Origin: Pelagibius sp. Alg239-R121
Lineage (GTDB): Bacteria > Pseudomonadota > Alphaproteobacteria > Kiloniellales > Kiloniellaceae
Direction: 5' to 3'
Assembly (NCBI RefSeq): GCF_947331435.1
Contig: NZ_CAMZOF010000002.1
Location: 620,001-684,000, forward strand
DNA length: 64,000 nucleotides
The notes beneath the pieces are model-generated. The model was not told the DNA's origin and did no database searches. It worked only from the letters and a program-made list of their open reading frames with translations. Position 1 is the first letter of the stretch, and the number at the start of each line of letters is the position of its first letter. Of this stretch, positions 30,261 through 52,281 are shown piece after piece. A program made the translations under genes and the position numbers.

Positions 30261-30283
30261 AGGGTCGCCCCTCTCTTAAAAAT

Positions 30284-35334: not shown

Positions 35335-37853
35335 TTGCCGCCTCCCATTTCTATGGTGATCGCGCCGCGTTCCGGGAAGTTCGGGTTGTTCTCGAGCTGG
35401 GCGATCTCAAGCCGACCCAATGCGATGACGCCATCCTTGAGAGGAGTGGTCGTGGTGGTGCCCCGGCGCCGGAACCGAGTAGCCTTCACCGAAGTTACAC
35501 CCTCGACGGCCATGACCGCTGCGTAGATCGGGCTCAGATAAACCGCCTCGCCAAAACTCAGATTGTCCGGATGGAAGTGCCCGAGCGTTCCGTCGCTGAA
35601 ACCCGCGGTTCCAAGCACCGCCATCACCTCTCGACGCACTTCCGAACGGAAGTGTTCGGGGCTCGCACAGACGAACAATCCCAGTTCCAGGGCGACAAAG
35701 CGCGGCGCATCGATCTCCAGGTCGTAGCCTGCCATGCGGAAGCGATCGAGGAAGCTCCGCAGTCCAGCTTCGAATTCCGACGTGACAGGACGCCCGCCAA
35801 AACGGTCCACCGTGACAAAAACTGTGTGCCCATGGCCGTTCCAACGGAAAGTGGCCGCCGCCCGCTGCACGTCCGGATAGCGTCGGGCGAGATCGGCATA
35901 ATCATCCGCCGTTACCGCGCGTTCCTGGCGCCGGTAAGCATAGGGCGCCGCTTTACGGACTTCCTCCATGGATTCCGGATTCGCCCCGCCGGTGGCAGGC
36001 AACGGGTTGCGCAGCTCAATGATCCCGCCCTGATCCGTAATCACATGGCGCAACGCATCGGCGCCGATATTCCCAATGGCACCGTTACCGACCCGATAAG
36101 ACGCGGAAAAGCCCGTGCGGGCATTCGGCCGGCGTCCATTCCGATCATCGCCAAAGCGCAGACGGGCACGCCCGTCGCGTTCGGTCTCGACGACGAAATG
36201 CCGATCATCGGCGAAGGATTGCAGCAGATCGCGACGCGCCAGCCAGCGTTCCGAAGGAGTCAGATCGTCATCGAGCCGCACGTCGGGCCGGCGATTATCG
36301 ATACGCTGATCCGTCGCATCGAACGCGGACGGACTGATGTCGGGATCATAGTCGGGCGATAGCTGCGTGACCGGCCCAAGCTCTAGAGCCGGGCGGTACC
36401 GGGGCGCCACGGGAATGGGATCGGCCCGTTCGCAAGCGTCGTTCGTCGGTTCCGCAACAAGGCTCAGATAAGGCGCAGGAACGCGCGACAATTCCTCACC
36501 CGAAACCGAACGGCCGTGATCAGCCAGCAGGATGTTGCCGAGAGCATGAGAAACCCGGTTGACCGGTCCACCGCCGACAGCGTCGTCGAGCGTCGCAGAG
36601 ATGCAGAATGGGAAAGGCAAGGCGTCTTCTTCGGCCCAGCGGATCTCCGTAATCTCGGCGCCGGTCAGTTCATCCGTCAATCCACTCTCGATCGCGCAGA
36701 GTCGAACTGCATGTCGAATATTGGGATCGGCATCCGCGCCGCGGCCGGTCCGCGGGCCAACCCACTCCTCGAAAATCAGGATGTCACCGTTCGCGAGATC
36801 GGGAAAATTTCCAGCCAGGGTGGCACGGGTGGCACCCCTGGTCAGACAGCATTCGGCATCGCCCCATTCGTAAAAATCCATCGCATTGTGGGCGGCGAAC
36901 AGCTCCTTGTCGTGCAGTGGCTCAAACACCAGCGGCAGGCGGTTCAAAACCCGGTCGCGCGAAGCAGGCGCGACGACCGGATCCAGCCCGGTCAGACGGG
37001 TCAGAAACTGTTCTTCGTTTTGCCGGATGATGACACCATCCACATCCACGCTGATCTGAATCCAGACCCGCGCGTTGCCGCCATCATGCATCTGATAATC
37101 GACCAACCGTGCATGCCTGCGAACCGACGAACGGCGGCGTGCAGTGGCCAGATAAGCCTCAGTCGCGACCGCATCCTGAGCATAACTCAAGCGGTCTCCG
37201 GTGAAGGCCAGCATTTCCACCAAGGTAATCCCCAAATCAGCTGGATTGCGTTCGCGCCAGTCGGGCATGATCTGCGCCATACGGTTGAGCATCAGGCGGC
37301 GGAAGCTCTGATAATCCTTGGCCAGATAGGAAATTGCCGGATTGTCCGTCAGATCGCCGGGGCAATCGTTGCGCGGCGCGCAGTCGAAGTCGGTCGGACA
37401 TTCCACCTTGAAGGAAAAATCGACCTGGGAGAGAAGACGGTCGATTCCGGCAGGGGGCGACAGCGCGCCCAAGGTCGATACCAGACGAAGCGTATAGGTC
37501 GCGTAGTCGCCATTGGAGCTGGTCCGCAAGACCAGAACCTGATCGGCCTCGGGCAAGGCGGTCAAGAACCCCGGCAAGCCTGCCTCGATCGGGTCGATCA
37601 GGCTTAGATCGGGAGCGTCGGCCCGGGTGACCCACTCAATTTCCACCCCAGTAATCCGCTCGCCACCTGACAGCTCCAGATTATCAAGCGTCAGATCAGG
37701 CGCCGGCTTCAGAAAGCGCAGCAGCAACGTGCGTTGACGCGGCGTGTTCTCGGGCGCTTCCAGGTCCAGGACTTCGATGAAGTCGATACCGTTGAGAACG
37801 GCGTCCGCCAGCACGAGTTCCCGGCGGCGGGCATCGCAGCAGTGATAGATCAC
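35331..37853 (-). CDS. baseplate assembly protein J-like (840 residues)
   Basis: This is the second J-like baseplate protein. Typical features are YLAKDYQSFRRLMLNRMAQI and ERNPADLGITLVEMLAFTGD in the first third, LRFGDDRNGRRPNARTGFSA, then LPATGGANPESMEEVRKAAP and AVTADDYADLARRYPDVQRA in the last third. It begins MIYHCCDARRRELVLADAVL. It overlaps the gp25 gene upstream and the other J-like gene downstream by four bases each. Role: wedge/ring component of the injection baseplate, cytoplasmic until particle release. Confidence 0.85.
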   Translation of the reverse strand: MIYHCCDARRRELVLADAVLNGIDFIEVLDLEAPENTPRQRTLLLRFLKPAPDLTLDNLELSGGERITGVEIEWVTRADAPDLSLIDPIEAGLPGFLTALPEADQVLVLRTSSNGDYATYTLRLVSTLGALSPPAGIDRLLSQVDFSFKVECPTDFDCAPRNDCPGDLTDNPAISYLAKDYQSFRRLMLNRMAQIMPDWRERNPADLGITLVEMLAFTGDRLSYAQDAVATEAYLATARRRSSVRRHARLVDYQMHDGGNARVWIQISVDVDGVIIRQNEEQFLTRLTGLDPVVAPASRDRVLNRLPLVFEPLHDKELFAAHNAMDFYEWGDAECCLTRGATRATLAGNFPDLANGDILIFEEWVGPRTGRGADADPNIRHAVRLCAIESGLTDELTGAEITEIRWAEEDALPFPFCISATLDDAVGGGPVNRVSHALGNILLADHGRSVSGEELSRVPAPYLSLVAEPTNDACERADPIPVAPRYRPALELGPVTQLSPDYDPDISPSAFDATDQRIDNRRPDVRLDDDLTPSERWLARRDLLQSFADDRHFVVETERDGRARLRFGDDRNGRRPNARTGFSASYRVGNGAIGNIGADALRHVITDQGGIIELRNPLPATGGANPESMEEVRKAAPYAYRRQERAVTADDYADLARRYPDVQRAAATFRWNGHGHTVFVTVDRFGGRPVTSEFEAGLRSFLDRFRMAGYDLEIDAPRFVALELGLFVCASPEHFRSEVRREVMAVLGTAGFSDGTLGHFHPDNLSFGEAVYLSPIYAAVMAVEGVTSVKATRFRRRGTTTTTPLKDGVIALGRLEIAQLENNPNFPERGAITIEMGGGK

Positions 37854-38212
37854 GGTCCGCCTCCCATCTCAAACTCAGCCAGCTGCTGCGTATCATCGCT
37901 CAACAGACGATAGGCAATGCGAATGCGCAGCGCGGAGTCTTCGGCTTCGGTTTGAACGCCATCCACGACGATCCGCTGCCCAAGATTTTGCTGCAAAGCG
38001 CCTTTGATCATGAATTCGGCAGTCGCAGCGGCCTCGGGGCTGGCGGCAGCAAAAACCAGTTGAAGAATGCCTGCGCCGAATTCGGGGCGGTTCACCCGCT
38101 CGCCGGGTGAGGTGAAGAGAATCTGCTCGATCAGATTTCGGACATGCTCGGCTTCCGACACATTGGCGGTGCGGTCGCGCCCGTCGAAATGATATGGGAA
38201 ATCGATCTGCAT
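37850..38212 (-). CDS. gp25/GPW-family baseplate wedge protein
   Basis: The 120-residue protein begins MQIDFPYHFDGRDRTANVSE and has the gp25 core HVRNLIEQILFTSPGERVNR followed by PEFGAGILQLVF. The EPR/PEFG-type motif is central to gp25, which nucleates sheath assembly on the baseplate. The longer frame to 38398 is rejected because its first 62 codons are out-of-family and overlap the PAAR-like gene. It overlaps the J-like gene by four bases and lies five bases after the PAAR-like gene. Confidence 0.92.
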   Translation of the reverse strand: MQIDFPYHFDGRDRTANVSEAEHVRNLIEQILFTSPGERVNRPEFGAGILQLVFAAASPEAAATAEFMIKGALQQNLGQRIVVDGVQTEAEDSALRIRIAYRLLSDDTQQLAEFEMGGGP

Positions 38213-38217
38213 GCGCC

Positions 38218-38538
38218 TTAGCTCCCGATCACGCGGGTTTGGGCTTGAATGGGCAGCATCGGCGTTCCGGTCGGCACGCAGGTGCTGACGCTGTCCTGCA
38301 GAACGACCGGCGCACCACCGGCAAATACCCGGGTCGCGGCAACAACGAACGTGCCGGTAACGCAGGGTCCGTTGCCGCCGGGCGGCACGAAGCCACAACC
38401 TGCGACCACCCAGGGAGAGGTCTGTGTCACCGCCGGCTGCCCGGACAGCAGAACCCGGGGAAAGGGAGTGGTTGGCGTCGCCTGGCCACCGTGACTGCAG
38501 GTGACCGTCGCACCGAGATGGAGTATGGGACCTGGCAT
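38218..38538 (-). CDS. PAAR-like spike-tip protein
   Basis: The 106-residue protein begins MPGPILHLGATVTCSHGGQA and has repeating short beta-strands rich in Gly, Pro and Thr, with cysteines at C14, C48, C59 and C87 or nearby. The start and the CxHGG-type segment match PAAR-like proteins that sharpen the spike in contractile tails. It lies between gpV (spike trunk) and gp25, the normal order. A metal site formed by Cys/His is likely, as in other PAAR-like tips. Confidence 0.8.
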   Translation of the reverse strand: MPGPILHLGATVTCSHGGQATPTTPFPRVLLSGQPAVTQTSPWVVAGCGFVPPGGNGPCVTGTFVVAATRVFAGGAPVVLQDSVSTCVPTGTPMLPIQAQTRVIGS

Positions 38539-38551
38539 GCTCTTCCCTTTC

Positions 38552-39061
38552 TCAGATGACCGTCAACGCGCCGTTGTTGATGGTAACGGCCGGTCCGGTC
38601 ATCACGATGGACGCCCCCCGGCCGTTCTGGATGTAAATCCCGGTATCATTGACGATAAGCGACGCACCGGTCGCCGTTTTCAATACGATCCCGCCGGTCG
38701 GCCCGGGCAAATCCGTGACCGTGATGCCGTTTTGCAGAAGCGTCTGCATGGTCATCGCAGAAACACCCGGAGGCGTTAGTTGATGAAGCACCGGCACCTC
38801 AGCGGCTGAGCCGAAATAGCAGCCGGTCCAGATCGGATAATCCGGATCGCCACGCTCGAACTCGATCCAGACGCCGGCTCCGATCGGCGGCACACCCATA
38901 TTGGCCGTTTGAATGCCCGCGACCGGAAAACAGGGCATCGCCCAACTGGTCAGGGCAATGGAGGAAACATCCGGCACGATTGCCTGAATACGACCGGTCA
39001 ACATGGGATCGATATTGTTGACCACCGTCCCGCGATATTTGCCGTAATAGGTTTCTGTCAT
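38552..39061 (-). CDS. baseplate assembly protein V-like (spike trunk, VgrG C-terminal-like)
   Basis: The 169-residue protein has an OB-fold start (YYGKYRGTVVNNIDPMLTGR, IQAIVPDV) and the PPIGAGVWIEFERGDPDYPI-WTGCYFG block seen in gpV and VgrG gp5-like domains. It ends with a beta-prism-like repetitive tail (GGIVLKTATGASLIVNDTGI). It forms the trunk of the puncturing spike with gpD. Its start overlaps the gpD-like stop by four bases. Confidence 0.92.
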   Translation of the reverse strand: MTETYYGKYRGTVVNNIDPMLTGRIQAIVPDVSSIALTSWAMPCFPVAGIQTANMGVPPIGAGVWIEFERGDPDYPIWTGCYFGSAAEVPVLHQLTPPGVSAMTMQTLLQNGITVTDLPGPTGGIVLKTATGASLIVNDTGIYIQNGRGASIVMTGPAVTINNGALTVI

Positions 39062-40185
39062 GCCGGAACCGATGTTTGTGTGGGCAAAAGCCCGTTGCGT
39101 TTAAGGGTGAAAGACTGCTTGTAGGCGCCGCGCGTCAGCTCATGCGTTACGCTGTCGACGTAGTGAACGCCGTCGTAGGCTTGACCGGCGCCACGCACGC
39201 CAACCAGAGAGCGGGCCTTAAGAATCCTGCCGTAGCGAACCACGTCGATCTTTCCGGTACCCGTGACCGCGTCGGCGTGCTGAGCCGCGTAAGCAAATCC
39301 GCGAACGACGGCTTCAAAAGGATTCAGGCGGGCGGTGTCGCGCAGGCGGGTGATCTTTGGCGGCAACGGCGGAATCGCGCCCAAGGGTGGGTGAAACGGG
39401 ATTGCCGACGGAATCGGAATGGGGATCGGTGCCTTGGTCAACTGGTTCTGTATAAACACGATCGGGATCTCTGTGCCGTCTTTGTTAAAGGTAAAACTCA
39501 GCTCCTCGGCATTGGTCGGACTGCCGGACTCGATCGTCAGGGCGGGCTGTACATCGCCGATACGAACCTCGGGGCCCCAGTAGGCAAAGCTGGTGGCCGG
39601 TGCAGGGCCGGGCTTCATGAAAAAGGTGTACCCTGCCTCGCCAGCGAGCATGCGGATGTATTCGAGATCCGTATCTTGATGCCGGGGCAGTTTTTCGGTC
39701 GGCAGGGGCGGCCCTTCGAGAGACGGAATGACTTGTGGAATCAGGCCCAGCCAGGCATATTTGGCCAGGATCAAGTTGACCCGGACAAAAGGCGGCATCG
39801 CGATGTAGGGCAGACCCGAGAAATCGAAAAGCTCCATGGTCGCCGTGAGATCTTTGCCCATCACCTTCAGCATAGCGGGTGCGCCGCCGGTGCCCGGATT
39901 CAACTCCGTACGGGTTACGACACCATTGATCAGTGGCGTCGCACGGCCATTCACGGTGGCAATGAGTGCGACACGAAGGATCGGAAGTGCGGATCCGCCT
40001 GCGAGCAGAAAAATTGTGTTGAGCGGAGAATTCTTTTCCAGCGCGAACAGCAGATCGAATCCGCTTTGTGTTTCGCCCGAGTTTTCGTGGACCGTAACGG
40101 ATTGGAGGGCATCGACAACGGGACGTGGCGCCGCGATCGGCACACCCGGTCCAAACATCACCGTAAGATCGACGCCCTTGATCAT
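39058..40185 (-). CDS. phage late control protein D-like (spike hub, VgrG N-terminal-like)
   Basis: The 375-residue gpD-like hub protein has VNLILAKYAWLGLIPQ, HQDTDLEYIRMLAGEAGYTF-FMKPG and YVDSVTHELTRGAYKQSFTL-KRNG, all typical of gpD/gp27 proteins. A Pro-rich loop (PIPIPIPSAIPFHPPLGAIP) near 270-290 is an unusual insertion. The frame opens with a GTG at 40218, but the ATG at 40185 (MIKGVDLTVMFGPG) with GGAAGGA upstream is preferred. gpD and gpV together correspond to the VgrG of type VI systems. Confidence 0.9.
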   Translation of the reverse strand: MIKGVDLTVMFGPGVPIAAPRPVVDALQSVTVHENSGETQSGFDLLFALEKNSPLNTIFLLAGGSALPILRVALIATVNGRATPLINGVVTRTELNPGTGGAPAMLKVMGKDLTATMELFDFSGLPYIAMPPFVRVNLILAKYAWLGLIPQVIPSLEGPPLPTEKLPRHQDTDLEYIRMLAGEAGYTFFMKPGPAPATSFAYWGPEVRIGDVQPALTIESGSPTNAEELSFTFNKDGTEIPIVFIQNQLTKAPIPIPIPSAIPFHPPLGAIPPLPPKITRLRDTARLNPFEAVVRGFAYAAQHADAVTGTGKIDVVRYGRILKARSLVGVRGAGQAYDGVHYVDSVTHELTRGAYKQSFTLKRNGLLPTQTSVPA

Positions 40186-40192
40186 ACCAATG

Positions 40193-40552
40193 TCATCCTT
40201 CCTCGGGCCCGGGCACACCTTGCGGCAGAGTTATGCGCACGTCGGCGCCCTCTTCTTCCAGCTCCTCCGCCCAGAGGCTGCCGTTAGCGTCGCAAAGCAT
40301 CCAAAAGGCTTCGGGATTCCCGACCTCCGCGGCAGTGATCTGATCCAACCGCTCGCCCTGCAGGACACGGCGCAGGCGCAGCGTATGAAAGGACTCCGGT
40401 TGCGGCGCAAAGCGGCGCTGCAGATAGGTGGTCGCGACCCCATCCGCTCCGACAATCACGCTTGTGGGAACTCCGTGATATCGGCTTTCGGGTGGAAAAT
40501 CTGTGCGCTCGACAACACCGGCCTCGAACATGGCCTGAATGGGGTTTTTCAT
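40193..40552 (-). CDS. LysM-domain tail protein (gpX / Afp7-like adaptor)
   Basis: A 119-residue protein with a LysM-like C-terminal half (HTLRLRRVLQGERLDQITAA, GNPEAFWMLCDANG, ITLPQG). In contractile tails a LysM protein links the inner tube to the spike hub. It sits between the tube-initiator gene (4-bp overlap) and gpD (seven bases), the expected location. Confidence 0.8.
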   Translation of the reverse strand: MKNPIQAMFEAGVVERTDFPPESRYHGVPTSVIVGADGVATTYLQRRFAPQPESFHTLRLRRVLQGERLDQITAAEVGNPEAFWMLCDANGSLWAEELEEEGADVRITLPQGVPGPEEG

Positions 40553-41205
40553 GGCAGACCTCCGATGCCGAAGTCAGCAAGCGGACCACTGGCAGAGCGG
40601 GAAGCAAGCTGTTCCTTGCCTTGCAGATAAGCCATGAAGAGGCCGCTGCCGCGATGTTTGAACCCGAGGTCATCGACGCTCAGGACCCTCAGACTAAGAC
40701 TGACTTTGGCGCGGATTGGATTCAGCGCGGCATCGAAGAATTCTTCGGTGATCGATAGATCGGTGACGCGCACAGGCACCACCCGGTTGCGGCTCCAGAC
40801 GAAAAGCGCGAGCGGTGTTTCAGCAGGTGTGATTTCGAAACTTCCGGCATCCGACTGGGCATTCTGCCGCTCCAGCTGCGCTACGCTCGGATGCAGCAGG
40901 GTCTCCATTGCCGAAAGGGCCGGGAAGATGCCGGCCTCCACGGCATCGGCATTCTGCTTTGGAAACTCCAACTGATCGGTGGCATCAAGCTCGGCTTCCA
41001 GGGTGATGGTCTCAACCGCCGGGCCCGTCAACCGCAGAGGTTGCGAACGGTCCGGCTCATCCTGGATCGACTGAACCTGAAGCGATCGCTGCAGAGTTTC
41101 AGATGCATATTGCAGCGTAATGATACGCTCGATCGCACCGCTCTCCGGCTCTATCAAAACAAGCCCGGCGCGGGTGAGTTTCGGGGATCTGGGAAAGCCT
41201 GTCAT
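40549..41205 (-). CDS. CIS tube-family protein (tube initiator)
   Basis: The 218-residue protein begins with KLTRAGLVLIEPESGAIERI-ITLQYASETLQRSLQVQ, the pattern of the CIS tube protein family (Afp7 N-terminal domain, gp53/gp54-like). The middle is a beta-rich tube fold (VETITLEAELDATDQLEFPK) with a conserved ALFVWSRNRVVPVRVTDLSI segment. It probably caps the baseplate and starts polymerisation of the inner tube. It follows the DUF4157 genes after a 58-bp gap, the largest within this half of the operon. Confidence 0.85.
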   Translation of the reverse strand: MTGFPRSPKLTRAGLVLIEPESGAIERIITLQYASETLQRSLQVQSIQDEPDRSQPLRLTGPAVETITLEAELDATDQLEFPKQNADAVEAGIFPALSAMETLLHPSVAQLERQNAQSDAGSFEITPAETPLALFVWSRNRVVPVRVTDLSITEEFFDAALNPIRAKVSLSLRVLSVDDLGFKHRGSGLFMAYLQGKEQLASRSASGPLADFGIGGLP

Positions 41206-41263: not shown

Positions 41264-43087
41264 TCATGGTGCCGGCCGGGGATATCTGGTTTCAAAAAAG
41301 GCAAAGGTCCTGGGACGCAACGCGCGGAGTCTGGCCGGGTCGGCCATGTAGAGCATGAAGGACTCGGCAAAGAGCTCCTCATAGTCGGAATCCGAATAGG
41401 TCGTGACCCCGCGCCGCAGAGTCGCCACAGAACCTTCGGGGGTATTCCGGGTAGCTGTTTCATCCTCGACACCGTCAGCGCGGACTGCGACCCGGAACGC
41501 AGGGGTCCGATCCGTCGCCTCGAATTCCCGATTGTATTCGCCGTCCGCATCCTGCTTGAATCGCGAACCTGAGAGCGAGCGCTGCTGCAGCAATCGCCGA
41601 CGTGCGGCTGGCGTTTGGCCTGCAGCGTCGAATCTGTTCCACTCAGCCTCCAGCGGGCGCAGATCCAATGCGTGGCCGATTTCATGCACCAGATTACGCA
41701 CGGCCTGGGAATGCCCGCCAAACCGCAAGGAGCTCGTGCTGAAGCTATCGTCGAACATCTCTACTACGTCGTTGACTTCATCGTAGTGTGCCGGCTCGCC
41801 GCCGGGGGCATCACCGCTCCGCCGCGCGAAGGTGAGGCCGTTTGCTGCAGTCACGGCGGCCGGAGTTAGGAGATGAAGCGCTTGATGGAGCGAGGAATAT
41901 TCGCCGGCAGTCCACGTTCCCGTCAGAGTGAATGTGCTGCCTCCGACCGTGACACTCGTTGGTACATCCGCTTGTGCAGGCGTGGCAGTCTCGGCCCCGA
42001 TGTCTTCGATCAGCATGACATGGGTGCTCGTTGCACTAGGTCCCTGACCCGTGACGTGCGTGAAGCGCGTAAAGCGATAAACCCGATGCGCGCCACCATG
42101 TGCCGAAAGATCCAGTGCAACTTCGATGCTCGTGCTCAGGGGCAACGCATTGGTGTTCCCTCCGAGCCAGGCGCCCATGCTCCCGAGCCCCACATGAAGC
42201 GATGCGTCTATCCCCGGGTCGAAACTGTTGGTGGCGCCAATCGATCGGGTTGAACCATGCCGTCCGCTGTCGTTTACCTCGAAATACTCCGTGACGATGG
42301 CCGCCGGAATATCGATGGGAATCGCGGATACCTGGATTTCCCGTCGTTCATTCTGGGGTATGGCACCAAGGCTGGTTGGCTGGCGTTGCAGAACCCCGCC
42401 TCTGGAACCGCCTTTCGCGACCTGCTGAAAAGTGTGGGTCAGCTCATGCGCCAGCAAATGGCGCCCTGCGGATGATTGCGGAGCATATTCCCCTGTGGCG
42501 AAAGCGATATGATTCCGCAGAGTATAAGCGCGCGCATTGATGCCGCGGGCCGCGGATTGCGCCTCGGATCCGGTGTGAATACGGACATGCGAAAGGTCGC
42601 GCCCAAAACGCGGCTCGAAATAGCCGCGCGCGGACAGTGACAGAGGTTGGCCGCCGGAGGCGACCGCGCGTGCCGCAAGTTGGGTTGGCGACGTTTGCGC
42701 TGGCGCCCTGTTAGAAACCGCCTGCGGACCCGCCAGCTTGGCCTGCAGCGTTTCTTCCTCGTCTTCTTCATCGCTTTGACGCTGCACCAAGGGTGAGATG
42801 GGCAGCACGGCAGTCTGCCCAACCGGCCGGTCGGACACGACTCGGTCGGACACGACTCGGTCGGACACGACCTGATCGGCAATACGGTCTGCTTCTTGTT
42901 CGTACCGATCGCCAGGAGTATTTACAGAAAGTTTAGGCTGAACAGAGAGCTTGGCTCCCAACGCACAGCCATCGCACTTGCCGGTAATTCCAGCCGTTTC
43001 ACCGCAAGAACAGGCGTCCCGCAACGTTGACCGGGCTTGTACGGCAGCGGTTTCAGCGATGGCTTGGCTGCCCTGTCTCATTGCCAT
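41264..43087 (-). CDS. DUF4157 protein with second HExxH domain (candidate payload A)
   Basis: This 607-residue protein has a modular N-terminal half: C26-x-C28 and C38-xx-C41 (probable zinc knuckle), RYEQEADRIADQVV, three VVSDR repeats (72-87), an acidic DEEDEEE patch, and a DUF4157 domain with HELTH at 213-217. Residues about 250-420 are beta-rich and contain a Gly-rich wall. A second zincin motif, HEIGH at 467-471 followed by ALDLRP, is in the C-terminal third. DUF4157 is known from eCIS-associated toxins. It overlaps the next DUF4157 gene by up to ten bases; the ATG at 43081 is an alternative start. Likely a protease-type cargo delivered by the tail (inference). Confidence 0.8.
   Translation of the reverse strand: MAMRQGSQAIAETAAVQARSTLRDACSCGETAGITGKCDGCALGAKLSVQPKLSVNTPGDRYEQEADRIADQVVSDRVVSDRVVSDRPVGQTAVLPISPLVQRQSDEEDEEETLQAKLAGPQAVSNRAPAQTSPTQLAARAVASGGQPLSLSARGYFEPRFGRDLSHVRIHTGSEAQSAARGINARAYTLRNHIAFATGEYAPQSSAGRHLLAHELTHTFQQVAKGGSRGGVLQRQPTSLGAIPQNERREIQVSAIPIDIPAAIVTEYFEVNDSGRHGSTRSIGATNSFDPGIDASLHVGLGSMGAWLGGNTNALPLSTSIEVALDLSAHGGAHRVYRFTRFTHVTGQGPSATSTHVMLIEDIGAETATPAQADVPTSVTVGGSTFTLTGTWTAGEYSSLHQALHLLTPAAVTAANGLTFARRSGDAPGGEPAHYDEVNDVVEMFDDSFSTSSLRFGGHSQAVRNLVHEIGHALDLRPLEAEWNRFDAAGQTPAARRRLLQQRSLSGSRFKQDADGEYNREFEATDRTPAFRVAVRADGVEDETATRNTPEGSVATLRRGVTTYSDSDYEELFAESFMLYMADPARLRALRPRTFAFFETRYPRPAP
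42829..42873 (-). repeat. three tandem 15-bp units encoding VVSDR
   Basis: Two identical copies of ggtcggacacgactc and a third copy differing only in the last bases lie in tandem inside payload gene A. Translated, they give three VVSDR/VVSDRP units. The paralogous gene B lacks this expansion. Slippage-prone coding repeats of this kind can change length between strains; here they fall in the linker before the acidic patch. Confidence 0.85.
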
Positions 43088-44940
43088 TTCCGTTTCCGCT
43101 TGAGGTCTTCGCCTTTTGGCTGCTTATGAGGATTGGTCAAAGGAAACTTGTCGGCATCGGCTTCGATGGTTTTGGCGTCACCGAAGACGGACTTGGGAGG
43201 CGAACCGCAGAGCGGGTCGGTTTGGTCGCAGTTTCTCGCTCTATCCTTGGCAGGTTTGCGATCCCAGGACTCCCGCAGGCGTTCGATCATTCCCGCATTT
43301 TGTGGAATATATGGCGTCAATAGCGCTTTCGCCCGGCCTTCAATCTGCATGACAGGAAGATCGTCGAGCCTTGCGTTTATGCAAGTGTCAAAGTCTCCGC
43401 CGGCCAGGGCGCAGATGTCCTGATCGTTCATCGAAGCCGCGGAATGTTCATCCTTCATCATGGATTGATCGGCAAGCGGATCGAAGTCCCGGCCCATCTG
43501 CTCGCGGAACCAAAAGAGCCGGTCCTTAAAAACCATGTTCTCATTGGCGGCATGGCCCTCGATATAGTTGTACCGGTCTTCAAGACCGAGCAGATGATGG
43601 GCCTCGTGCGCGATGGTTTGGGGATCGCCGACCCAATTGCCTGAATTTGTCCATTGCGACGGATCCACGCCCACAGTGAAAATGTCTTGTGCACCGTTCT
43701 TTTTCACGAAATCGATGTCCAGCGTGTAACCGCGGGTCGAGGAGGCCTTTTCGATCGCGTCAACGATGGCCTTGGTGCGCTTGACGTCGTCTTCAGTCCC
43801 CTTGCCCTTGGGTTTCAGCAGGACTTTCATACGCACGACGATGTTCGTGGGATCGGTCCGATCGACCTGAAACTCCTTGCCCCCTTCGCCCTTCCTGGAT
43901 ACGAAATTCGGTTCGGAACGATCGGCGATGTCCTCTTCAACGCCGGAAAGTTTGCCCGCAGTTGGGTCGGCCAGGCGGGTCTCCTCTTTCTTTTCGGCCT
44001 TTTCGGTCATATCCCGATTCTCGTCTGCCAGTTTGTCACCTGACGCCATGGGTGTATTGAACATGAGCAGTAGCTTGTCGATGTAATACATCGGGCAGGC
44101 ACTGTTGCGGGCGCCGTCGATGATGTGGCGGGTATAACCCTTGGCCCTCCAGTCCAACTTCCTCAAATAAACCGCGTGATTCAAAGCCTCATCGGCCTTT
44201 TTCTCAAAATCTTCTTTCGTGCCGGTGGGGATTTTCGCCGGATCACTGGGGCAGGTCCGGCGGATCGTCCGGCCGCCGTTCTGCTGGAAGGTATGGGTCA
44301 GCTCGTGCGCCAGAAGGTGACGGCCTCTCGGTGTTTCCGGCTCGTACTGCCCCGGGGCAAAAGCAATGTGGTTCCCGAGCGTATAAGCCCGCGCATTGAT
44401 GCCACGGGCGGCAGACTGCGCCTCTCCCCCGGTATGCAGACGGACGTGTGTAAGGTCATGGCCGAAACGTGGCTCAAAATAACTGCGGTCCGATCGCGAG
44501 AGTGGCCGTCCGCCAGAGGCAACCGCGCGAACCGCCGATTGGGTTGCGGTTGCTTGACCTGTCGTAGATTGTCCTGCTGTCGACTGTCCTGCCGCCGGCG
44601 ATGTCGATTTGGCCTGCAGCATCTCCTCCTCTTCCTCCTCGGCATCGTTTTGCCGCTGCACAAGAGGTGAGATCGAAAGCGAGGACCTCAGCGGTGATGC
44701 CTGCCCCGGCGCAATCTCGCTGGAAACAACCTGATCAGCGATGCGGTCGGCCTCCTGCTCATACCGATCGCCCGGTGCGCTGATCGTCATCTTTGATTGG
44801 ATGCCCAATTTCTCGGCCGAAGCGCAGCTGCCACACTTACCCGATATGCCGGCGGCTTCACCGCAGCTGCAGGCCCGCTGGATTTTCGTGTTCGCGACCG
44901 TCGGAGTCTCGGTCACGGCCTGATGATTCTGAACGCTCAT
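43078..44940 (-). CDS. DUF4157 protein with metzincin-like HExxHxxGxxD domain (candidate payload B)
   Basis: The 620-residue protein shares its first 220 residues closely with payload A: Cys24/26/36/39, RYEQEADRIADQVV, LVQRQ, an E-rich patch and HELTH at 212-216. A low-complexity AGQSTAGQSTTGQAT linker (about 117-131) takes the place of the VVSDR repeats. The C-terminal half is unrelated to A and carries HEAHHLLGLED at 445-455, a HExxHxxGxxD zincin motif with EDRYNY behind it. Conserved N-module plus new C-module is typical of delivered toxin families. Its start overlaps the stop of the next gene upstream as ATGA. Confidence 0.82.
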   Translation of the reverse strand: MSVQNHQAVTETPTVANTKIQRACSCGEAAGISGKCGSCASAEKLGIQSKMTISAPGDRYEQEADRIADQVVSSEIAPGQASPLRSSLSISPLVQRQNDAEEEEEEMLQAKSTSPAAGQSTAGQSTTGQATATQSAVRAVASGGRPLSRSDRSYFEPRFGHDLTHVRLHTGGEAQSAARGINARAYTLGNHIAFAPGQYEPETPRGRHLLAHELTHTFQQNGGRTIRRTCPSDPAKIPTGTKEDFEKKADEALNHAVYLRKLDWRAKGYTRHIIDGARNSACPMYYIDKLLLMFNTPMASGDKLADENRDMTEKAEKKEETRLADPTAGKLSGVEEDIADRSEPNFVSRKGEGGKEFQVDRTDPTNIVVRMKVLLKPKGKGTEDDVKRTKAIVDAIEKASSTRGYTLDIDFVKKNGAQDIFTVGVDPSQWTNSGNWVGDPQTIAHEAHHLLGLEDRYNYIEGHAANENMVFKDRLFWFREQMGRDFDPLADQSMMKDEHSAASMNDQDICALAGGDFDTCINARLDDLPVMQIEGRAKALLTPYIPQNAGMIERLRESWDRKPAKDRARNCDQTDPLCGSPPKSVFGDAKTIEADADKFPLTNPHKQPKGEDLKRKRKWQ

Positions 44941-46673
44941 GGCGTGCCTCCCCGGATCAGAAACATCTCGACGCGCCGGTTCATCGCCCGGGTGATGGCA
45001 TCCTCTTCCGTCACGGTCGGGCGGCTTTCACCGAAGTGCGGCGGCCGATTGGCATCGACCATCCTATTCCAAGGCACGCCCTCTTGATGGGCCATTCGAT
45101 AGAACGCAACAGAGCGGCGCCGGGACATATCCATGTTCGCGGCGTCACTGCCCGGTCCCGAGGAATGACCGACAAACCGGACTTTCAGTTGGGGGTCACT
45201 GTCCAAGCGATCGGTCTTGACGCTTTGAAAAGCCGTCTCATGTTCCGTTTTCGGTTGCGCCTCGCCAAAACCAAGGTTCAGAAAGCGGAAATGCTCGCCG
45301 GGCACCACTGTCTGAAACAGGCCACTGCCGCTGCGAGAAGCTTTACGTTCTTCGTTTTGGTTCGAACCCTCGCGAATTCCGGTGTCGTCCTCGAAGGCAG
45401 AGCGCGCTTCGGCACTCCGGGTTTCCAGGCGCCAGACTTCGCCCAGGAAAAACGCCCTCGCGACACCATCCTCGGAGACGTTTGCGCCGATCTGGTCCTG
45501 CACCGTATCGACTCGCGCCTGATAGTTATTACGCCCCGTAAGCTCCGTGGAAGTCATGACCTTGCGGGCCAGCCACTCGGTCAAACCTTCGTTGTAGTGA
45601 CGGATATCGCGGGAAGCATCGACCCAAGCCTTGTAGCGTGTATGCCGGTAGAGATGCACAATCTCGTGGATGAGAGTCGTCTGACGAGGTCCCGCCTGAA
45701 CACGCGGATGCACGAAAATTTCCCGGTTTGCTGCTTCACCCCGCGCAAAGGCAGATTGTCGCGCCGCCAGGGTCACAATTTTCGGGCCGACATCGGTGTC
45801 GTTGATCAACTTAGTGATCATCGCCCGGTAATTAACGTTTGTAGGGTCAATGTCGAAATCCTCGGAATCCGACATCTTCTCGAGAACGTTGTCCATCCAC
45901 TGGTTCAAAAAGTCCGCATCGCTCGACACGACAGACGGCTTCATCAACGACACCCGGTTCTCGATTTCAGTGTCGCTGAGCGGCGAAGAGATCTGTGGGA
46001 AGTGCGCGGTCACTCGCTTGTGCATCGCGACCGCATCACTATCGAGATTGGCATTGGTCGTGTTGGTCGATGCAGGGCGATTGAAGTTTCGCGCATCCAG
46101 GAAGTTGAACGCCTGCGTGAAGAGATGATCGGCGGTGCCACCGCTTCCCAGCGCCCCGTCGACCCAAGGTTTACGCTGCGTACTGCCACCCGGTGAAGCC
46201 GGCGCGCGGGGCGGACCATCAACCCGGACTCCCTGATGAACATCACCCAGACGTCCCGGGCTGACGAGATCTCGGCTCAGGCGCAGCCCGTGACCACCGG
46301 TAATCGGTCCGCCGCCTGATACAACAGATTGCGCTTCCCGCTCGGCCGGATCGCCAGCGCGGCTGACAGGAACCCTCCCGGTCGGTTCAGCCATACCCTG
46401 TTGAAGTGCGTGGACAGCCTCATGGGCGAGCGTATCAGGCACCGCCATCCTTGACAGTGCGACGTCGCGTCCAACAGCAAACCCGCGGGCGCCCAGCGCC
46501 GAAGACGCCCGATCGACCGCAGGTCCCTCATGAATCCGGAGAGAAGAAAGATCACCACCCAGACGGGCTTCCAGCCCGGCACGTTCTGCCCCCAGTCCCC
46601 GCGCAGGTGTCGCGAGCGCCGCAGACACCGGAACGCTCAGCACGTCGTTTGTCTGTTTGGCCCGTGCTCTCAT
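44937..46673 (-). CDS. DUF4157 protein with gluzincin-like site and OmpA-like C-terminus (candidate payload C)
   Basis: The 578-residue protein starts MRARAKQTNDVLSVPVSAAL at 46673; the reading frame extends to 46988, but those 105 codons overlap two other genes and the ATG at 46673 overlaps a stop as ATGA. A short DUF4157-like domain has HEAVH at 84-88. A second motif, HEIVH at 336-340 with a downstream NEGLTEW (Glu362/Glu366), looks gluzincin-like. The last 90 residues resemble an OmpA-type peptidoglycan-binding domain (KVRFVGHSSGPGSDAANMDM, SRRRSVAFYRMA, MNRRVEMFL). It lacks the N-terminal cysteine module of A and B. A cell-wall-directed cargo or an anchoring factor are both possible. Confidence 0.78.
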   Translation of the reverse strand: MRARAKQTNDVLSVPVSAALATPARGLGAERAGLEARLGGDLSSLRIHEGPAVDRASSALGARGFAVGRDVALSRMAVPDTLAHEAVHALQQGMAEPTGRVPVSRAGDPAEREAQSVVSGGGPITGGHGLRLSRDLVSPGRLGDVHQGVRVDGPPRAPASPGGSTQRKPWVDGALGSGGTADHLFTQAFNFLDARNFNRPASTNTTNANLDSDAVAMHKRVTAHFPQISSPLSDTEIENRVSLMKPSVVSSDADFLNQWMDNVLEKMSDSEDFDIDPTNVNYRAMITKLINDTDVGPKIVTLAARQSAFARGEAANREIFVHPRVQAGPRQTTLIHEIVHLYRHTRYKAWVDASRDIRHYNEGLTEWLARKVMTSTELTGRNNYQARVDTVQDQIGANVSEDGVARAFFLGEVWRLETRSAEARSAFEDDTGIREGSNQNEERKASRSGSGLFQTVVPGEHFRFLNLGFGEAQPKTEHETAFQSVKTDRLDSDPQLKVRFVGHSSGPGSDAANMDMSRRRSVAFYRMAHQEGVPWNRMVDANRPPHFGESRPTVTEEDAITRAMNRRVEMFLIRGGTP

Positions 46674-46921
46674 CCCTTCAGCACTCCCAATGCCGCCCGG
46701 GCAACCGCTTGCCCCACACCGGCTTCCGAGCCACGGCCCTTCACCTGACCGCCATCGAGAGACCGGATTCTGGCGTTCAACGGATTCTGCAAACCTGCCG
46801 GCTGCTGATGGATCAACGCAGTCAGCTCCGCCTCGATGGCTGCCGACAGTTCGCGTCGGGAGAAGCGCCCACTGGGAACCGTGACCGAGTCGATCTTCAG
46901 AGTGATCCGGCGCCGGCTCAT
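46670..46921 (-). CDS. small uncharacterised tail-cluster protein
   Basis: The 83-residue protein begins MSRRRITLKIDSVTVPSGRF and has a basic N-terminus, a helix (ELSAAIEAELTALIHQQ) and a Gly/Ala-rich C-terminus ending in AVARAALGVLKG. It overlaps the AAA ATPase gene and payload C by four bases each, so it is very likely translated. Position beside the ATPase and payload genes suggests a cargo adaptor or chaperone, but nothing in the sequence proves that. Confidence 0.7.
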   Translation of the reverse strand: MSRRRITLKIDSVTVPSGRFSRRELSAAIEAELTALIHQQPAGLQNPLNARIRSLDGGQVKGRGSEAGVGQAVARAALGVLKG

Positions 46922-48852
46922 GTGATCCCTCCGATCTCCGCTGCCGAGAAGGGTTTTTCCAGCTTGGCATATTCGCGCCGGGCCGCATTCAAAACATGCT
47001 GCGGCATCACCGGCGTGTTCGCGCCCGCTGCCAGAAAGCTTGCATTGAGGGCGACTGAGCGAATCGAGCCGCCCGAGAGATTCATACGCGACAGTTTTTG
47101 TGGATCGAGGCCTTCGACTGGTGTGGCCTGTGGGAAAATCCGCGCCCAGATTTCGGCGCGCGCCGTGGCGTCGGGGAACGGGAACTGAATAACGTAACGC
47201 AGGCGGCGTAGAAACGCGCTGTCGAGTGCGGATTTTTGGTTCGTGGTAAGGACAGCCAGGCCACGATAAGCCTCCATCCGTTGCAACAGGTAGCTGACCT
47301 CAACGTTGGCGTAACGGTCGTGACTGTCCTTGACCTCGCTACGTTTGCCGAACAGCGCATCGGCTTCATCGAACAAGAGAATTGCCCCGCCATCCTCGGC
47401 GGCGGTGAAGATCCGCGAGAGGTTCTTTTCGGTTTCACCGATGTATTTACTGACGACCTGGCTGAGGTCGATGCGATAAAGATCGAGCCCCAGACGGTTG
47501 GCAAGAACTTCCGCCGCGAAGGTTTTTCCGGTTCCGGACGGGCCCGAGAAAAGTGCCGCCGCGCCTAAGCCGCGCGGGCTTTTTTGCTTCCAGCCCCAGG
47601 CTTCGCTGATCCGCCAGGATTCCTGCACGTGCATTGCGAGATCGCCCAACAATGCCATCTGTTGTTCGGGTAGAACGAGGTCGTCCCAATCGGCCTGACT
47701 TTCGATCCTCTCGGCCAGGCCGTCCAGCTGGCGCCGCCCCTGTTCGCGAGCGGCCTGCCACAAGCGGCCGAAAACCTTATCGGGGTCAACCGCTGTTCCG
47801 TTGAGTGAAGCCTCAACTGCCGCGAACACACCCGCCCGATCGAGAGAGAACTGTTCGGCGAGACGGTCTAGACCAGTGCCCAGCGCTTCAGCTTGCGGGC
47901 CAACGGTTTCATGCCATATCGCCCGCCTTTCACTGACCGTTGCCTCGGGAATATCGATCCTCAGCCTGGGGCCGCGTTCCGGAACGGCAGGGTCTATCGC
48001 AGCAATCGCAGTCGGTCCCGCCAGCATGTCCGCCAAGCGTCCAGCCTGGCCTCCCTCGGTTTCATAACTCTCGATCAGGATCGCGCCGTCCGAAAGTGCC
48101 ATTTCCCGATCCAGGTAAACCGCCAGTGCGTGGCGTTGAGTCCAATCGGTGGGAATGTCGCTTTCACTAATCCGAAAAAGACTGAGGCGCAGCGCGTCAG
48201 TGGCAGCTGCCAGGGTGGCGCGGGCAATAAGCTTGTCACGGCCTGCAAGCAATAGAACCGGCATCGCGGTCGGCACGGACCAGGCGGCAAGGACCCTATG
48301 GGCAGACGCGTTTTGATCAACCGGGTTCAAGACGGCGCCCGACGACCGTACCCGCGTTACGATGCCCTCGAGCCGCGTATCCAGGTAGTTCAGCCCCATC
48401 AAGAAATTCAACAGGCGCTCATCGACTTCTATCTTGCGCCGCAGGAAGGGGCCCGAACCGGAAAGATCCAGCAAGCGACATCGTCTTAATGGCGCCGCCG
48501 GGCACAGGGCATCCCAGCCTGTATCACCGAAAAGAGCCTGCGCAAGTGCGACGTCGGGTTGGGGTGATCCGGCCGCGCTCTTGATCTCGTCAGACAGCTG
48601 TGCGTCAAGCTCAGCCCCTGCCGACAGGCACAAGATGCCGCGCTCAGTGGGCGTCAGACGGAAGAGATCGTCGAGCGCATCCAACGCGGACCCACTGCGC
48701 CGTACGGACGGCGATTCCAGAGGCGTCTCACCAGCGCGGAATGCCGACAGGCGCGCACGCAGTTCCGCGCAGTCCTGTGCCAAAGCCGCGCGCATCTCAC
48801 CGACCAAGTTACGCGGCACATCAGATTCGGCGTGGATGGATTCCGCGCTCAT
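46918..48852 (-). CDS. AAA+ ATPase of the contractile tail cluster (Afp15/Pvc15-like)
   Basis: The 644-residue protein has a divergent N-terminal half (1-400, including a degenerate ATPase-like part) and a C-terminal AAA module. Walker A GPSGTGKT is at 437-444, the SKYIGETEKNL pore-region motif follows, Walker B LLFDEAD is at 492-498 and RRLRYVIQF provides the arginine-finger region. Each eCIS cluster encodes one such ATPase; it is thought to load cargo or remodel the particle. It overlaps the DUF4255 gene upstream by four bases. Confidence 0.92.
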   Translation of the reverse strand: MSAESIHAESDVPRNLVGEMRAALAQDCAELRARLSAFRAGETPLESPSVRRSGSALDALDDLFRLTPTERGILCLSAGAELDAQLSDEIKSAAGSPQPDVALAQALFGDTGWDALCPAAPLRRCRLLDLSGSGPFLRRKIEVDERLLNFLMGLNYLDTRLEGIVTRVRSSGAVLNPVDQNASAHRVLAAWSVPTAMPVLLLAGRDKLIARATLAAATDALRLSLFRISESDIPTDWTQRHALAVYLDREMALSDGAILIESYETEGGQAGRLADMLAGPTAIAAIDPAVPERGPRLRIDIPEATVSERRAIWHETVGPQAEALGTGLDRLAEQFSLDRAGVFAAVEASLNGTAVDPDKVFGRLWQAAREQGRRQLDGLAERIESQADWDDLVLPEQQMALLGDLAMHVQESWRISEAWGWKQKSPRGLGAAALFSGPSGTGKTFAAEVLANRLGLDLYRIDLSQVVSKYIGETEKNLSRIFTAAEDGGAILLFDEADALFGKRSEVKDSHDRYANVEVSYLLQRMEAYRGLAVLTTNQKSALDSAFLRRLRYVIQFPFPDATARAEIWARIFPQATPVEGLDPQKLSRMNLSGGSIRSVALNASFLAAGANTPVMPQHVLNAARREYAKLEKPFSAAEIGGIT

Positions 48853-50183
48853 GGGATCGTCACCGTTTCAAGCACCGGGGGTTCGGCTTGGCGGTCGATG
48901 ACCGGACTGTCGATGCCGTCCACCCGCAGACGAACGGGGAGTGCAGCGCCCGAGTTCAAACCTGCGAACACGGCCTGGACCTGATCGACCGCCGCAACAG
49001 GAGAAGCAATCTGCGCCGTATGCTGACCAACAAGGATCTCCACCGTTTGGCCCGGTCGGATCGGCGGCTCCGAGGTCATGGTGATGGCAACACCGCCCGC
49101 ATCGGGCGCGGCTGACGGCGTTGTGGCCGGGGCAAGCGCCAGGGGCAAAGCGTTGGAGAAGACTTCCCGTCCATCGCCGTCGAGCACCCGGACATCGATT
49201 GAATAGGACCCGATACGCCAGGCTCCCGGGTCGTTTCCCGAGCCTGCAAGCGGGTGTGCCGCTGCCAAGGCGGGGCCACTGGGCAGGTCGATCAGCAACC
49301 GGTTGGGGGCTGCGGGTGCCAGCGGGACCAGCTCCAGAACCAGTCCGGTTCCCGGTTCGGAAAAGCGCACGGTCGCGTCCCCGCCATCAAGGGCAAACCC
49401 GGTGACTGCAACCCGTCCTCCCAGCCGCATGACCGGCTGCTCATCGAGAGGTTCGACGGTCAACAAGGTGGGGACCGACGACATCAGATCAGGCCGGACA
49501 GTCACGCCCGGATCGCGCCCCGTTGCTGGATCGACCAATCCGCCGCGGCTGAGAACCGGCAGGCTCGGACGGGTCGGCTGATCGCGCTCGATCAAGACCA
49601 AAGAGACGTCATAGGCCACGGTGGTGCGGTAATTCGCCTGAAGCGCCGTCCACATCTTGGACATGTCATCCATCGAGAGGGTGCGTGGCGTGATTTTTAG
49701 GAGTTCGATCTGATCGGCGATCTCTGCAGCCTGGATGACACCCAGATCGTTGGGCAGAATATCGCCAGGCACTGCGCCCATCAATGCAGTCCGGATGCGC
49801 TCCCGCGGCAGGATCGCCGTTTCATGAAACAGCTGCATGGCATAACCGAGAAGAATCTCTGCATGGAGTTCTTCTCCCGAGACTGCCGTCAGCATGTAAT
49901 GCAGATCAAGCGCCAGTCTGGGTCGGCAGACGATCCGGCCTTCGCTGCTGCGCGTGGGCAGGTCGGTGTTGCGAAGCGCGGCGTTCGGCGTGATCCGATG
50001 CAGAAAGACATTGAGCTGCGTGGCCTGACTATCTCCGTTATCGGCGACCACGCGATCCGGCGGAAGGGCAGTGACCGAAAAATCCGCCCCGAGAGCCTGG
50101 CTGACATCGCCATCGATCATCGCATCGTTCAGAAGATCCTTCAGAAGCTGAGTCACAGCGGCAATGGCCAGGACGTTGCTCAT
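48849..50183 (-). CDS. DUF4255 / Pvc16-like tail terminator protein
   Basis: The 444-residue protein starts MSNVLAIAAVTQLLKDLLND and shows the DUF4255 (Pvc16 N-terminal) pattern: LNVFLHRITPNAALRNTDLP, LALDLHYMLTAVSGEELHAE, ILLGYAMQLFHE. The C-terminal half (about 210-430) looks like an Ig/IPT-type beta-sandwich (DLMSSVPTLLTVEPLDEQ, VAVTGFALDGGDATVRF), larger than the minimal Pvc16. In eCIS particles this protein caps the tube and sheath. Operon neighbours overlap by four bases on both sides. Confidence 0.88.
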   Translation of the reverse strand: MSNVLAIAAVTQLLKDLLNDAMIDGDVSQALGADFSVTALPPDRVVADNGDSQATQLNVFLHRITPNAALRNTDLPTRSSEGRIVCRPRLALDLHYMLTAVSGEELHAEILLGYAMQLFHETAILPRERIRTALMGAVPGDILPNDLGVIQAAEIADQIELLKITPRTLSMDDMSKMWTALQANYRTTVAYDVSLVLIERDQPTRPSLPVLSRGGLVDPATGRDPGVTVRPDLMSSVPTLLTVEPLDEQPVMRLGGRVAVTGFALDGGDATVRFSEPGTGLVLELVPLAPAAPNRLLIDLPSGPALAAAHPLAGSGNDPGAWRIGSYSIDVRVLDGDGREVFSNALPLALAPATTPSAAPDAGGVAITMTSEPPIRPGQTVEILVGQHTAQIASPVAAVDQVQAVFAGLNSGAALPVRLRVDGIDSPVIDRQAEPPVLETVTIP

Positions 50184-50947
50184 CCGCTCCCCCTGCCGCT
50201 CTTAAGGTAATCTGCAAGCGATGTCATCTGGGGCTGACGAAGCTGTGGCCGCTTAGGTTGTTTTTGTGCGACCGGTTCGGCACGAACGTCAATGCGGCCG
50301 ATTTCGATGACGATGTCTGGTGTCGCTGGCGCGCTGGGATCTTCCCGATGCAACGATCTGCTGGAGACACGCTGACGGGCGGAATCCGGCTCGTAGCGGC
50401 CGGAATCTTCGCCCTCCGGCGGAGAATAGTGATGTTGGGGAAGGAGAGGTTCCGGCGGGCGAGCGGGCTGTGTTGCTCGGGGTGCCGGCAACGCAATATC
50501 CACGGTGGATGATGGCAAATCAGCAACAGCCTCGTTGGGCAACGTCGCCGCAATGGGCGCAGGAGGCACGGCTTGCTCTCTGACTGGCATATCATCCGTC
50601 TTCCGATGGTCCCGATGGCTCTGCAGAGGATCGGACTGCCTGGGCAAAGGGCTTGCCGGTAAAAGCGGTGATGGACGGTTCTCGAGGCTGGGCGCCTGCG
50701 CGCGACGCAACGTTCTTTTGTCGAGCTCTGCAGGATCTGTTGCCAGCGGAGATCTTGAGTCTGGCACGGGTTCACTCGGCTTGGGCGGCACTACAGGTGG
50801 TTCAGCCGGAATACTTTCATTTACTGTTTCCGGCGCACTGCCCCACTCGGTGGATGGCACCTCGAAACGCGATGCCACACGGGGGCTTAACCCTGGACCG
50901 GCGGTTCCATTGGCGCGCGCGACCAGACGTGACAGAACACCGCTCAT
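50180..50947 (-). CDS. proline-rich uncharacterised tail-cluster protein
   Basis: The 255-residue protein has a long low-complexity middle (about 25-210) rich in Pro, Ala, Ser, Arg and Glu, certainly disordered. The C-terminus is ordered-looking: DIVIEIGRIDVRAEP, then a basic stretch and TSLADYLKSGRG. I have no family name; the IEIGRIDVRA...L..YL pattern recurs in proteins placed beside DUF4255 genes as I remember them, but this is weak. The N-terminus MSGVLSRLVARANGTAGPGL may bind a partner. It overlaps the neighbours by four bases. A flexible tether or cargo adaptor is a guess. Confidence 0.65.
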   Translation of the reverse strand: MSGVLSRLVARANGTAGPGLSPRVASRFEVPSTEWGSAPETVNESIPAEPPVVPPKPSEPVPDSRSPLATDPAELDKRTLRRAQAPSLENRPSPLLPASPLPRQSDPLQSHRDHRKTDDMPVREQAVPPAPIAATLPNEAVADLPSSTVDIALPAPRATQPARPPEPLLPQHHYSPPEGEDSGRYEPDSARQRVSSRSLHREDPSAPATPDIVIEIGRIDVRAEPVAQKQPKRPQLRQPQMTSLADYLKSGRGSG

Positions 50948-51639: not shown

Positions 51640-51743
51640 GTTACTCCAGCGGCTAGAATCTGATCATTAGAGGGCAATTCGGTTTCTGACGGGTCCGGTC
51701 AATAACGATCGCACTCTAGGGGTTCCAAAGCGGATTCTGCCTG

Positions 51744-52262: not shown

Positions 52263-52281
52263 GTCTGTTACTCCTTAGCGC

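Follow-up and report, generated by a model that had tools for sequence, protein, structure and literature searches.

The window analysed here (the whole stretch of 64,000 nucleotides, positions 620,001 to 684,000 of contig NZ_CAMZOF010000002.1 from Pelagibius sp. Alg239-R121) carries a complete operon for an extracellular contractile injection system (eCIS), within which lie three successive minus-strand genes, A, B and C, transcribed in the order C, B, A. We propose, with a probability of roughly 0.8, that their products are eCIS cargo in which a constant N-terminal module containing the eCIS_core domain (Pfam PF13699, formerly DUF4157) is joined to exchangeable payloads of zinc-metalloprotease type. 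The evidence is computational: the domain make-up of the proteins, their operon context, the recurrence of their tails on eCIS_core proteins elsewhere, the enrichment of a second zincin motif in such tails, and the modelled fold of the A tail. From these we infer a course of events in which A, B and C would be loaded into the particle through the constant module and the neighbouring AAA+ ATPase, with the module and its eCIS_core most likely handling loading or release. The particle would then fire into a target cell, where the tails would bind zinc and act as toxic proteases: lethal factor/Pro-Pro endopeptidase (PPEP)-like in A, metzincin-like in B, and gluzincin-like with an OmpA-like end in C. 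The features concerned, in window coordinates, are as follows.

41264..43087, minus: gene A, 607 aa; four-cysteine (Cys4) motif, PGD...EQEAD motif, acidic linker, eCIS_core and lethal-factor/PPEP-like tail
42398..43087, minus: A residues 1-230, constant N-terminal module, 63% identical to that of B
42965..43012, minus: A Cys4 motif, residues 26-41
42419..42646, minus: A eCIS_core, residues 148-223, with HELTH at 42434-42448
41267..41980, minus: A residues 370-607, lethal-factor/PPEP-like metalloprotease fold (structure model and fold search)
41672..41686, minus: A second motif HEIGH, residues 468-472
41363..41377, minus: A residues 571-575, E-x-F-x-E, kept in four aligned sequences
43078..44940, minus: gene B, 620 aa; same N-terminal module and eCIS_core as A, metzincin-like tail
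44260..44940, minus: B residues 1-227, constant N-terminal module
44824-44871, minus: B Cys4 motif
44272-44505, minus: B eCIS_core, with HELTH at 44293-44307, minus
43576..43608, minus: B HEAHHLLGLED, residues 445-455, of HExxHxxGxxD type, with HEAHH at 43594-43608
43456..43461, minus: B Met494-Met495, conserved in three aligned sequences
44937..46673, minus: gene C, 578 aa from the Met at 46673; diverged eCIS_core, gluzincin-like middle, OmpA-like C-terminus
46392..46583, minus: C eCIS_core, with HEAVH at 46410-46424
45576..45668, minus: C HEIVH (45654-45668) to the E-x-x-x-E of NEGLTEW (45576-45590)
44961..45251, minus: C OmpA-like C-terminal domain

A preliminary description of this stretch, made from the letters alone, had proposed three consecutive DUF4157 proteins, and each indeed scores above the 22-bit cut-off of eCIS_core (A 99.9 bits, E 9e-29; B 105.8 bits, E 1e-30; C 51.4 bits, E 1e-13); the six HExxH motifs it named in A, B and C all translate where it placed them. 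A and B both contain the Cys4 motif CxCG...CxxC, which also occurs in two eCIS_core proteins of a congener, together with an EQEAD motif, an acidic linker and eCIS_core. The claim that they share their first 220 or so residues, Cys4 included, holds for its extent (222 aligned residues between A 1-230 and B 1-227), but at 63% identity the two are not nearly identical. Past the module they diverge completely, as had been described: the local alignment score of 50 is at shuffle level (200 shuffles, mean 36, maximum 68). Because third codon positions are only 38% identical between A and B, the duplication must be old and the likeness has been kept by protein-level selection, not recency; a recent duplication was rejected on the same figure. 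C has a diverged core, no acidic linker and no Cys after its likely start.

The structure model places the A tail in a lethal factor/PPEP fold, with HEIGH lying inside the modelled protease. A putative downstream Glu ligand for HExxH is present in 4/4 aligned sequences, two of which are marginal matches chosen partly for the motif (loci L044, E 0.64, and L080, E 0.018), and E-x-F-x-E at residues 571-575 is a candidate site for the third zinc ligand. When the A profile was searched against the PDB, antibody light chains ranked above lethal factor and PPEPs, all at E >=0.04, and the result was not used. In B, HEAHHLLGLED fits the pattern HExxHxxGxxH/D, with the Gly replaced by Lys in both B homologs; the conserved Met-Met pair lies 45-46 residues past the second His of HEAHH in the three aligned B-type sequences and is a candidate Met-turn. 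No Pfam or NCBIfam family matches the B tail over its cut-off.

In C, the E-x-x-x-E that had been noticed downstream of HEIVH is found within NEGLTEW, where the two Glu lie 26 and 30 positions past the first His of HEIVH. The Phaeobacter ortholog (L060) has HEIIH and NEGLTEW at the corresponding places, and both proteins thereby fit the gluzincin/M78-like arrangement of an HExxH with a Glu about 20-30 residues on. Against Pfam M78, C scores 15.4 bits and L060 20.6, both below the cut-off of 22, and we therefore do not file the C middle as M78. The C-terminal end resembles OmpA by an NCBIfam YiaD model (E 1e-11; all NCBIfam matches were sub-cut-off) and the OprF domain in the PDB (E 4e-5), and scores 20.6 bits against Pfam OmpA (cut-off 27.2). 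The Phaeobacter alignment begins at C's Met 46673, where the ortholog likewise has a Met, which supports the start originally chosen. A start at 46988, giving the long ORF (open reading frame) 44937-46988, was rejected, since its first 105 codons overlap the stop of the AAA+ gene and an 83-codon ORF.

We then compared these proteins with relatives from other genomes. An N-terminal alignment searched against an 84,980-species genome collection yielded at least 441 confirmed relatives; we retained the best 80, from 77 loci, and adding 10/12 loci (L004-L015) from an order-wide search, with two matches under the family cut-off left out, gave 87 loci, 85 of which hold 161 eCIS_core ORFs. The sample thus reflects similarity to four N-termini, those of A, B and two proteins of a congener, and is not random. 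Each of the window's tails recurs on an eCIS_core protein of another genus, with different neighbours and in the same operon slot: that of A in Microvirga sp. BSC39 (E 4e-29, 32% identity), that of B in Ruegeria haliotis and a Sedimentitalea metagenome-assembled genome (45-47% identity), and that of C in Phaeobacter marinintestinus (54% identity). This is the arrangement of polymorphic toxins of Photorhabdus virulence cassettes (PVCs), in which the N-terminal part stays constant and the C-terminal domains are exchanged, and it supports the scheme of a fixed module with interchangeable domains put forward at the outset, but C lacks the module of A and B. The link between tails and eCIS_core is not independent, because the loci were fetched via eCIS_core. 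No two of the three tails co-occur in any fetched locus, because the flanks are conserved while the slot genes change each time.

Searches with the tails alone led to the same places in the genome samples and to none other at the limits used. Family and order samples returned only places previously found (C tail 1/248, B tail 2/248, A tail 1/249). Class-wide, the A tail matched 2/385 genomes, its own and one marginal match (E 6e-4) in a frame unconfirmed as a gene, which was dropped; the B tail matched 1/385, its own only, and the C tail 103/385, its own and others, almost all of them within the OmpA part. One genome in that search, G109, gave a 39-residue match to the HEIVH part of the C tail (E 8e-4). 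Scans of viral contigs with single tails and tail alignments found zero relatives, as did a tblastn search of plasmids with the three tails. Full-length A matched 83 plasmid records, none at 80% coverage, and the 40 rows listed stop by residue 264/607.

The comparison with other DUF4157 proteins that the preliminary description had called for revealed a strong enrichment of second zincin motifs. Residue shuffling gives a chance HExxH per tail of 0.021 for A, 0.008 for B and 0.024 for C. Among the 157 eCIS_core ORFs with >=100 residues after the core, 38 carry a tail HExxH, against 1.38 expected from shuffles, and with one tail per sequence cluster the count is 27/127 against 0.89. Since 3/38 merely repeat the core motif, 35/157 have a second zincin motif (a count of motifs, whose zinc sites are putative). 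The eCIS_core-type motif is repeated in the tails of L081, L096 and L109. Six control motifs, made by reordering HExxH or changing one letter, occurred in 0-2/157 tails; the other-letter motifs DE..D (13/157) and RE..R (22/157) were as frequent as their commoner residues make likely. HExxH was found in 5/182 other ORFs of the same loci, ORFs unverified as genes. Among the 38 tails formed by these 35 and the window's three, Pfam matches at E 0.05 were to Aspzincin_M35 (8), ATLF (2), M78 (2) and OmpA (3). A second HExxH is likewise present in both eCIS_core proteins of the congener G036 (L004, L012), which match Aspzincin_M35 below the cut-off (E 5e-4, 5e-6).

The operon around the cargo genes comprises the following parts.

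48849..54579, minus: sheath/tube side, with Pvc16, a 255 aa protein, a T4 baseplate-like protein, gp19 tube and sheath
46918..48852, minus: AAA+ ATPase, one flank of the cargo slot, directly upstream of the cargo side
46670..46921, minus: 83-codon ORF between the AAA+ gene and C
40549..41205, minus: CIS_tube-like protein, the other flank (E 0.0012, below cut-off)
26919..40552, minus: baseplate side, with a DUF6519 and beta-helix protein (putative fibre), a 740 aa protein, two Baseplate_J proteins, gp25, an OB-fold spike, a 386-aa protein and a small protein

Sheath, gp19 tube, gp25, Baseplate_J, Pvc16 and AAA+ genes thus surround the cargo genes; we take the ATPase to be the counterpart of Pvc15/Afp15. 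No further eCIS_core gene was found in the genome (8.0 Mb, 48 contigs). C overlaps B by 4 bases and B overlaps A by 10, so that there is no room for immunity genes between them, which fits distant targets by the argument of Zhang et al. The order AAA+, cargo genes, CIS_tube-like gene and next two genes is conserved in the window and in L039, L040, L042, L054 and L060, where the CIS_tube-like protein is 71-81% identical to that of the window while the slot genes differ locus by locus. BLAST with the window proteins detected both flanks in 18/85 loci, and in 17/18 of these, from several phyla by record title, eCIS_core genes lie directly between them (the exception is L061); the remaining loci showed one flank only (20), only other eCIS genes (10) or none (37). 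The slot is not the only position of eCIS_core genes, a proposal ruled out by L055, L064, L070, L075, L087 and L099, in which they come after a gene of DUF6519 type, the gene that closes the window's operon downstream; this fits the 3'-end placement described by Geller et al. and by Danov et al. The literature, which was surveyed in part, yielded no description of an internal slot with AAA+ and CIS_tube-like genes as its flanks, and one may exist.

ORFs similar to the 83-codon ORF (36-40% identity) sit at the corresponding position in L060, L054 and L042, irrespective of the cargo. It is a candidate for a loading adaptor or for a structural part; the idea that it provides immunity to C was rejected, because such ORFs are present in L054 and L042, whose slots are without C. 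At the operon end, the DUF6519 and right-handed beta-helix protein (26919-30260, minus) has a weak phage tail spike match, and as a putative fibre it may set the target. Relatives of the 740-residue protein (30284-32506, minus), which has no Pfam or PHROGs match, adjoin DUF6519-type genes in L055, L064, L075, L087 and L099. The 386-aa protein, without a family match, is called hub-like by position only.

Several observations weigh against our proposal or qualify the preliminary description. By sequence, the N-terminal module of C is not the same as that of A and B. A scores 17.1 bits against ATLF (PF07737), under the curated cut-off of 27.4, as do its relatives in L040 (18.9), L044 (16.3) and L080 (13.1), which is why we call A lethal-factor/PPEP 'like' and no family member. 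Of the structure predictions that had been suggested for the second domains, that of A gave a protease fold, but the B model is poor (pLDDT 52, zincin part <50), and a fold search with it returned no match at E 0.001. The published eCIS signal peptides are hydrophilic, the signal being disordered with an aromatic residue (PMC11297309). Hydrophilicity sums over the first 50 residues are -11.6 for B and -7.0 for C, whereas A is not hydrophilic (+2.9), and an aromatic residue is absent from the first eight of A, B and C, unlike in the published signal. The idea that three zincins in a row are special fell away: across 17 comparable slots, 14/33 genes encode a tail with HExxH, and the probability of such a run rises from 0.011 at the rate of 35/157 to 0.08 at the slot rate. 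Finally, Cgo1 of AlgoCIS inhibits growth independently of the HExxH in both its DUF4157 and its C-terminal domain (PMC8894135).

The N-terminal tree is also equivocal. Among 31 N-termini, same-locus copies cluster regardless of tail in seven cases: A with B (95/68), L044, L058, L061, L084, L085 and L096. Exceptions are L039 and L046, whose copies lie apart, L060, with L054 between its copies, L040, whose copies include a row of L039, and congener G036, whose copies are unresolved in the tree. Two of three B-type N-termini cluster by tail (L039 with L042, 100/95), and a clade of B-type rows was not rejected (p 0.12), nor one of A-type rows (p 0.38). Because of this grouping and of the tail-type clades that were not rejected, the tree alone is no proof of swapping.

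For the role of the eCIS_core HExxH, self-release or structure alone, two accounts compete, each somewhat short of even odds. The eCIS_core could be an autoprocessing protease that frees the payload during or after export, whereupon the tail cuts its targets. Autoprocessing was proposed in 2012 (PMC3482391), the core sits N-terminal to variable tails, and its HExxH is kept in 158/161 eCIS_core ORFs, the misses being a locus-end truncation, a frame stopping before the motif and one HELTL (the Cys4 pattern, in 56/161, is common but not universal). Such conservation would also fit a structural zinc site, however; the Cgo1 effect does not depend on the motif, and no cleavage is demonstrated in the literature surveyed. 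Alternatively, and about as plausibly, eCIS_core may be a loading chaperone or adaptor with a structural zinc site, the tails alone mattering. Danov et al. suggested a chaperone in cis or trans (PMC11297309), and the gene for the constant module adjoins AAA+ in 17/18 loci with both flanks in view, yet the catalytic Glu is kept in nearly all copies, beyond structural need, and VgrG2b, whose relatives are annotated DUF4157, requires HExxH for toxicity (PMC6899460).

That C is an accessory part, unlike the cargo A and B, seems unlikely. It could be a peptidoglycan anchor, as OmpA domains bind peptidoglycan, and its want of a Cys4 motif and an acidic linker and its diverged core point the same way, as does its place first after the AAA+ gene and the small ORF in both loci having C. 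Its absence from the slots of L039, L040, L042 and L054, which have the same machinery, means that it is no required part, and an extreme C-terminal OmpA is described as a putative toxin feature of PVC toxins (PMC3482391). We consider it very improbable that the second HExxH motifs arose by chance or have degenerated, with the tails serving some other function. A confident fold model is confined to A, and Cgo1 offers a precedent for a motif-independent effect, but the motif is retained in the few aligned homologs and strongly enriched over controls, and A has its fold.

Our proposal of cargo with exchangeable metalloprotease-type payloads can be extended, as a long shot, to a slot between AAA+ and tube genes that favours double-zincin cargos across phyla, with the eCIS_core zincin releasing or activating a zymogen-like second zincin; if true, the particle would deliver protease relays, not single toxins. 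More immediately, the window and five alphaproteobacterial loci form a comparison set for the role of DUF4157 in eCIS cargo, with the same slot, similar machinery and different tails. A second zincin motif is common in the eCIS_core tails of this sample, with Aspzincin_M35 the most frequent Pfam family, and structures of the B and C tails, which lack a clear family, would be informative.

The closest known systems share features with the window as follows. The A tail models to the fold of the anthrax lethal factor protease domain and the Pro-Pro endopeptidases (PF07737), and its HExxH is followed further on by two conserved Glu; A differs by its identity of only 16-19% in structure alignments and its sub-cut-off score, and its delivery would be by a contractile tail. 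Experimental precedents for DUF4157 and HExxH function are split: beside Cgo1, VgrG2b of Pseudomonas, whose C-terminal relatives carry the DUF4157 annotation, needs HExxH for its toxicity, which is periplasmic (PMC6899460), and a Parabacteroides DUF4157 cargo had weak activity, seen only with a periplasmic tag (PMC12210884). Like the eCIS-associated toxins (PMC8213781, PMC11297309), the window's proteins have an N-terminal DUF4157, a C-terminal toxin-type domain and an eCIS operon around them; those toxins tend to be encoded at or beyond the operon's 3' end, whereas these cargos are internal, between AAA+ and tube genes. AlgoCIS provides a neighbouring DUF4157 pair, Cgo1 and Cgo2, located in the tube lumen (Xu et al. 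2022, PMC8894135), with a common N-terminal part, differing C-termini and two HExxH in Cgo1; the window has three proposed cargos, known from genes alone and likened to that pair by description, not by tail sequence.

A further close system is that of the PVC-metallopeptidase toxins (Zhang et al. 2012, PMC3482391), described as having a constant PVC-metallopeptidase (DUF4157) and variable C-termini arising by recombination, with lethal-factor-like metallopeptidases mainly among PVC toxins and immunity genes often absent. The constant N-terminal DUF4157, variable C-terminal toxin-type domain, OmpA or OmpA-like C-terminal end and missing immunity gene are common to both. In the window, by contrast, three such proteins are neighbours and a second zincin motif occurs in every one; the C tail combines a gluzincin-like motif with an OmpA-like end, and the B tail has no family match over cut-off. 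The overall design has been known since 2012; the exact parts of A, B and C are new.

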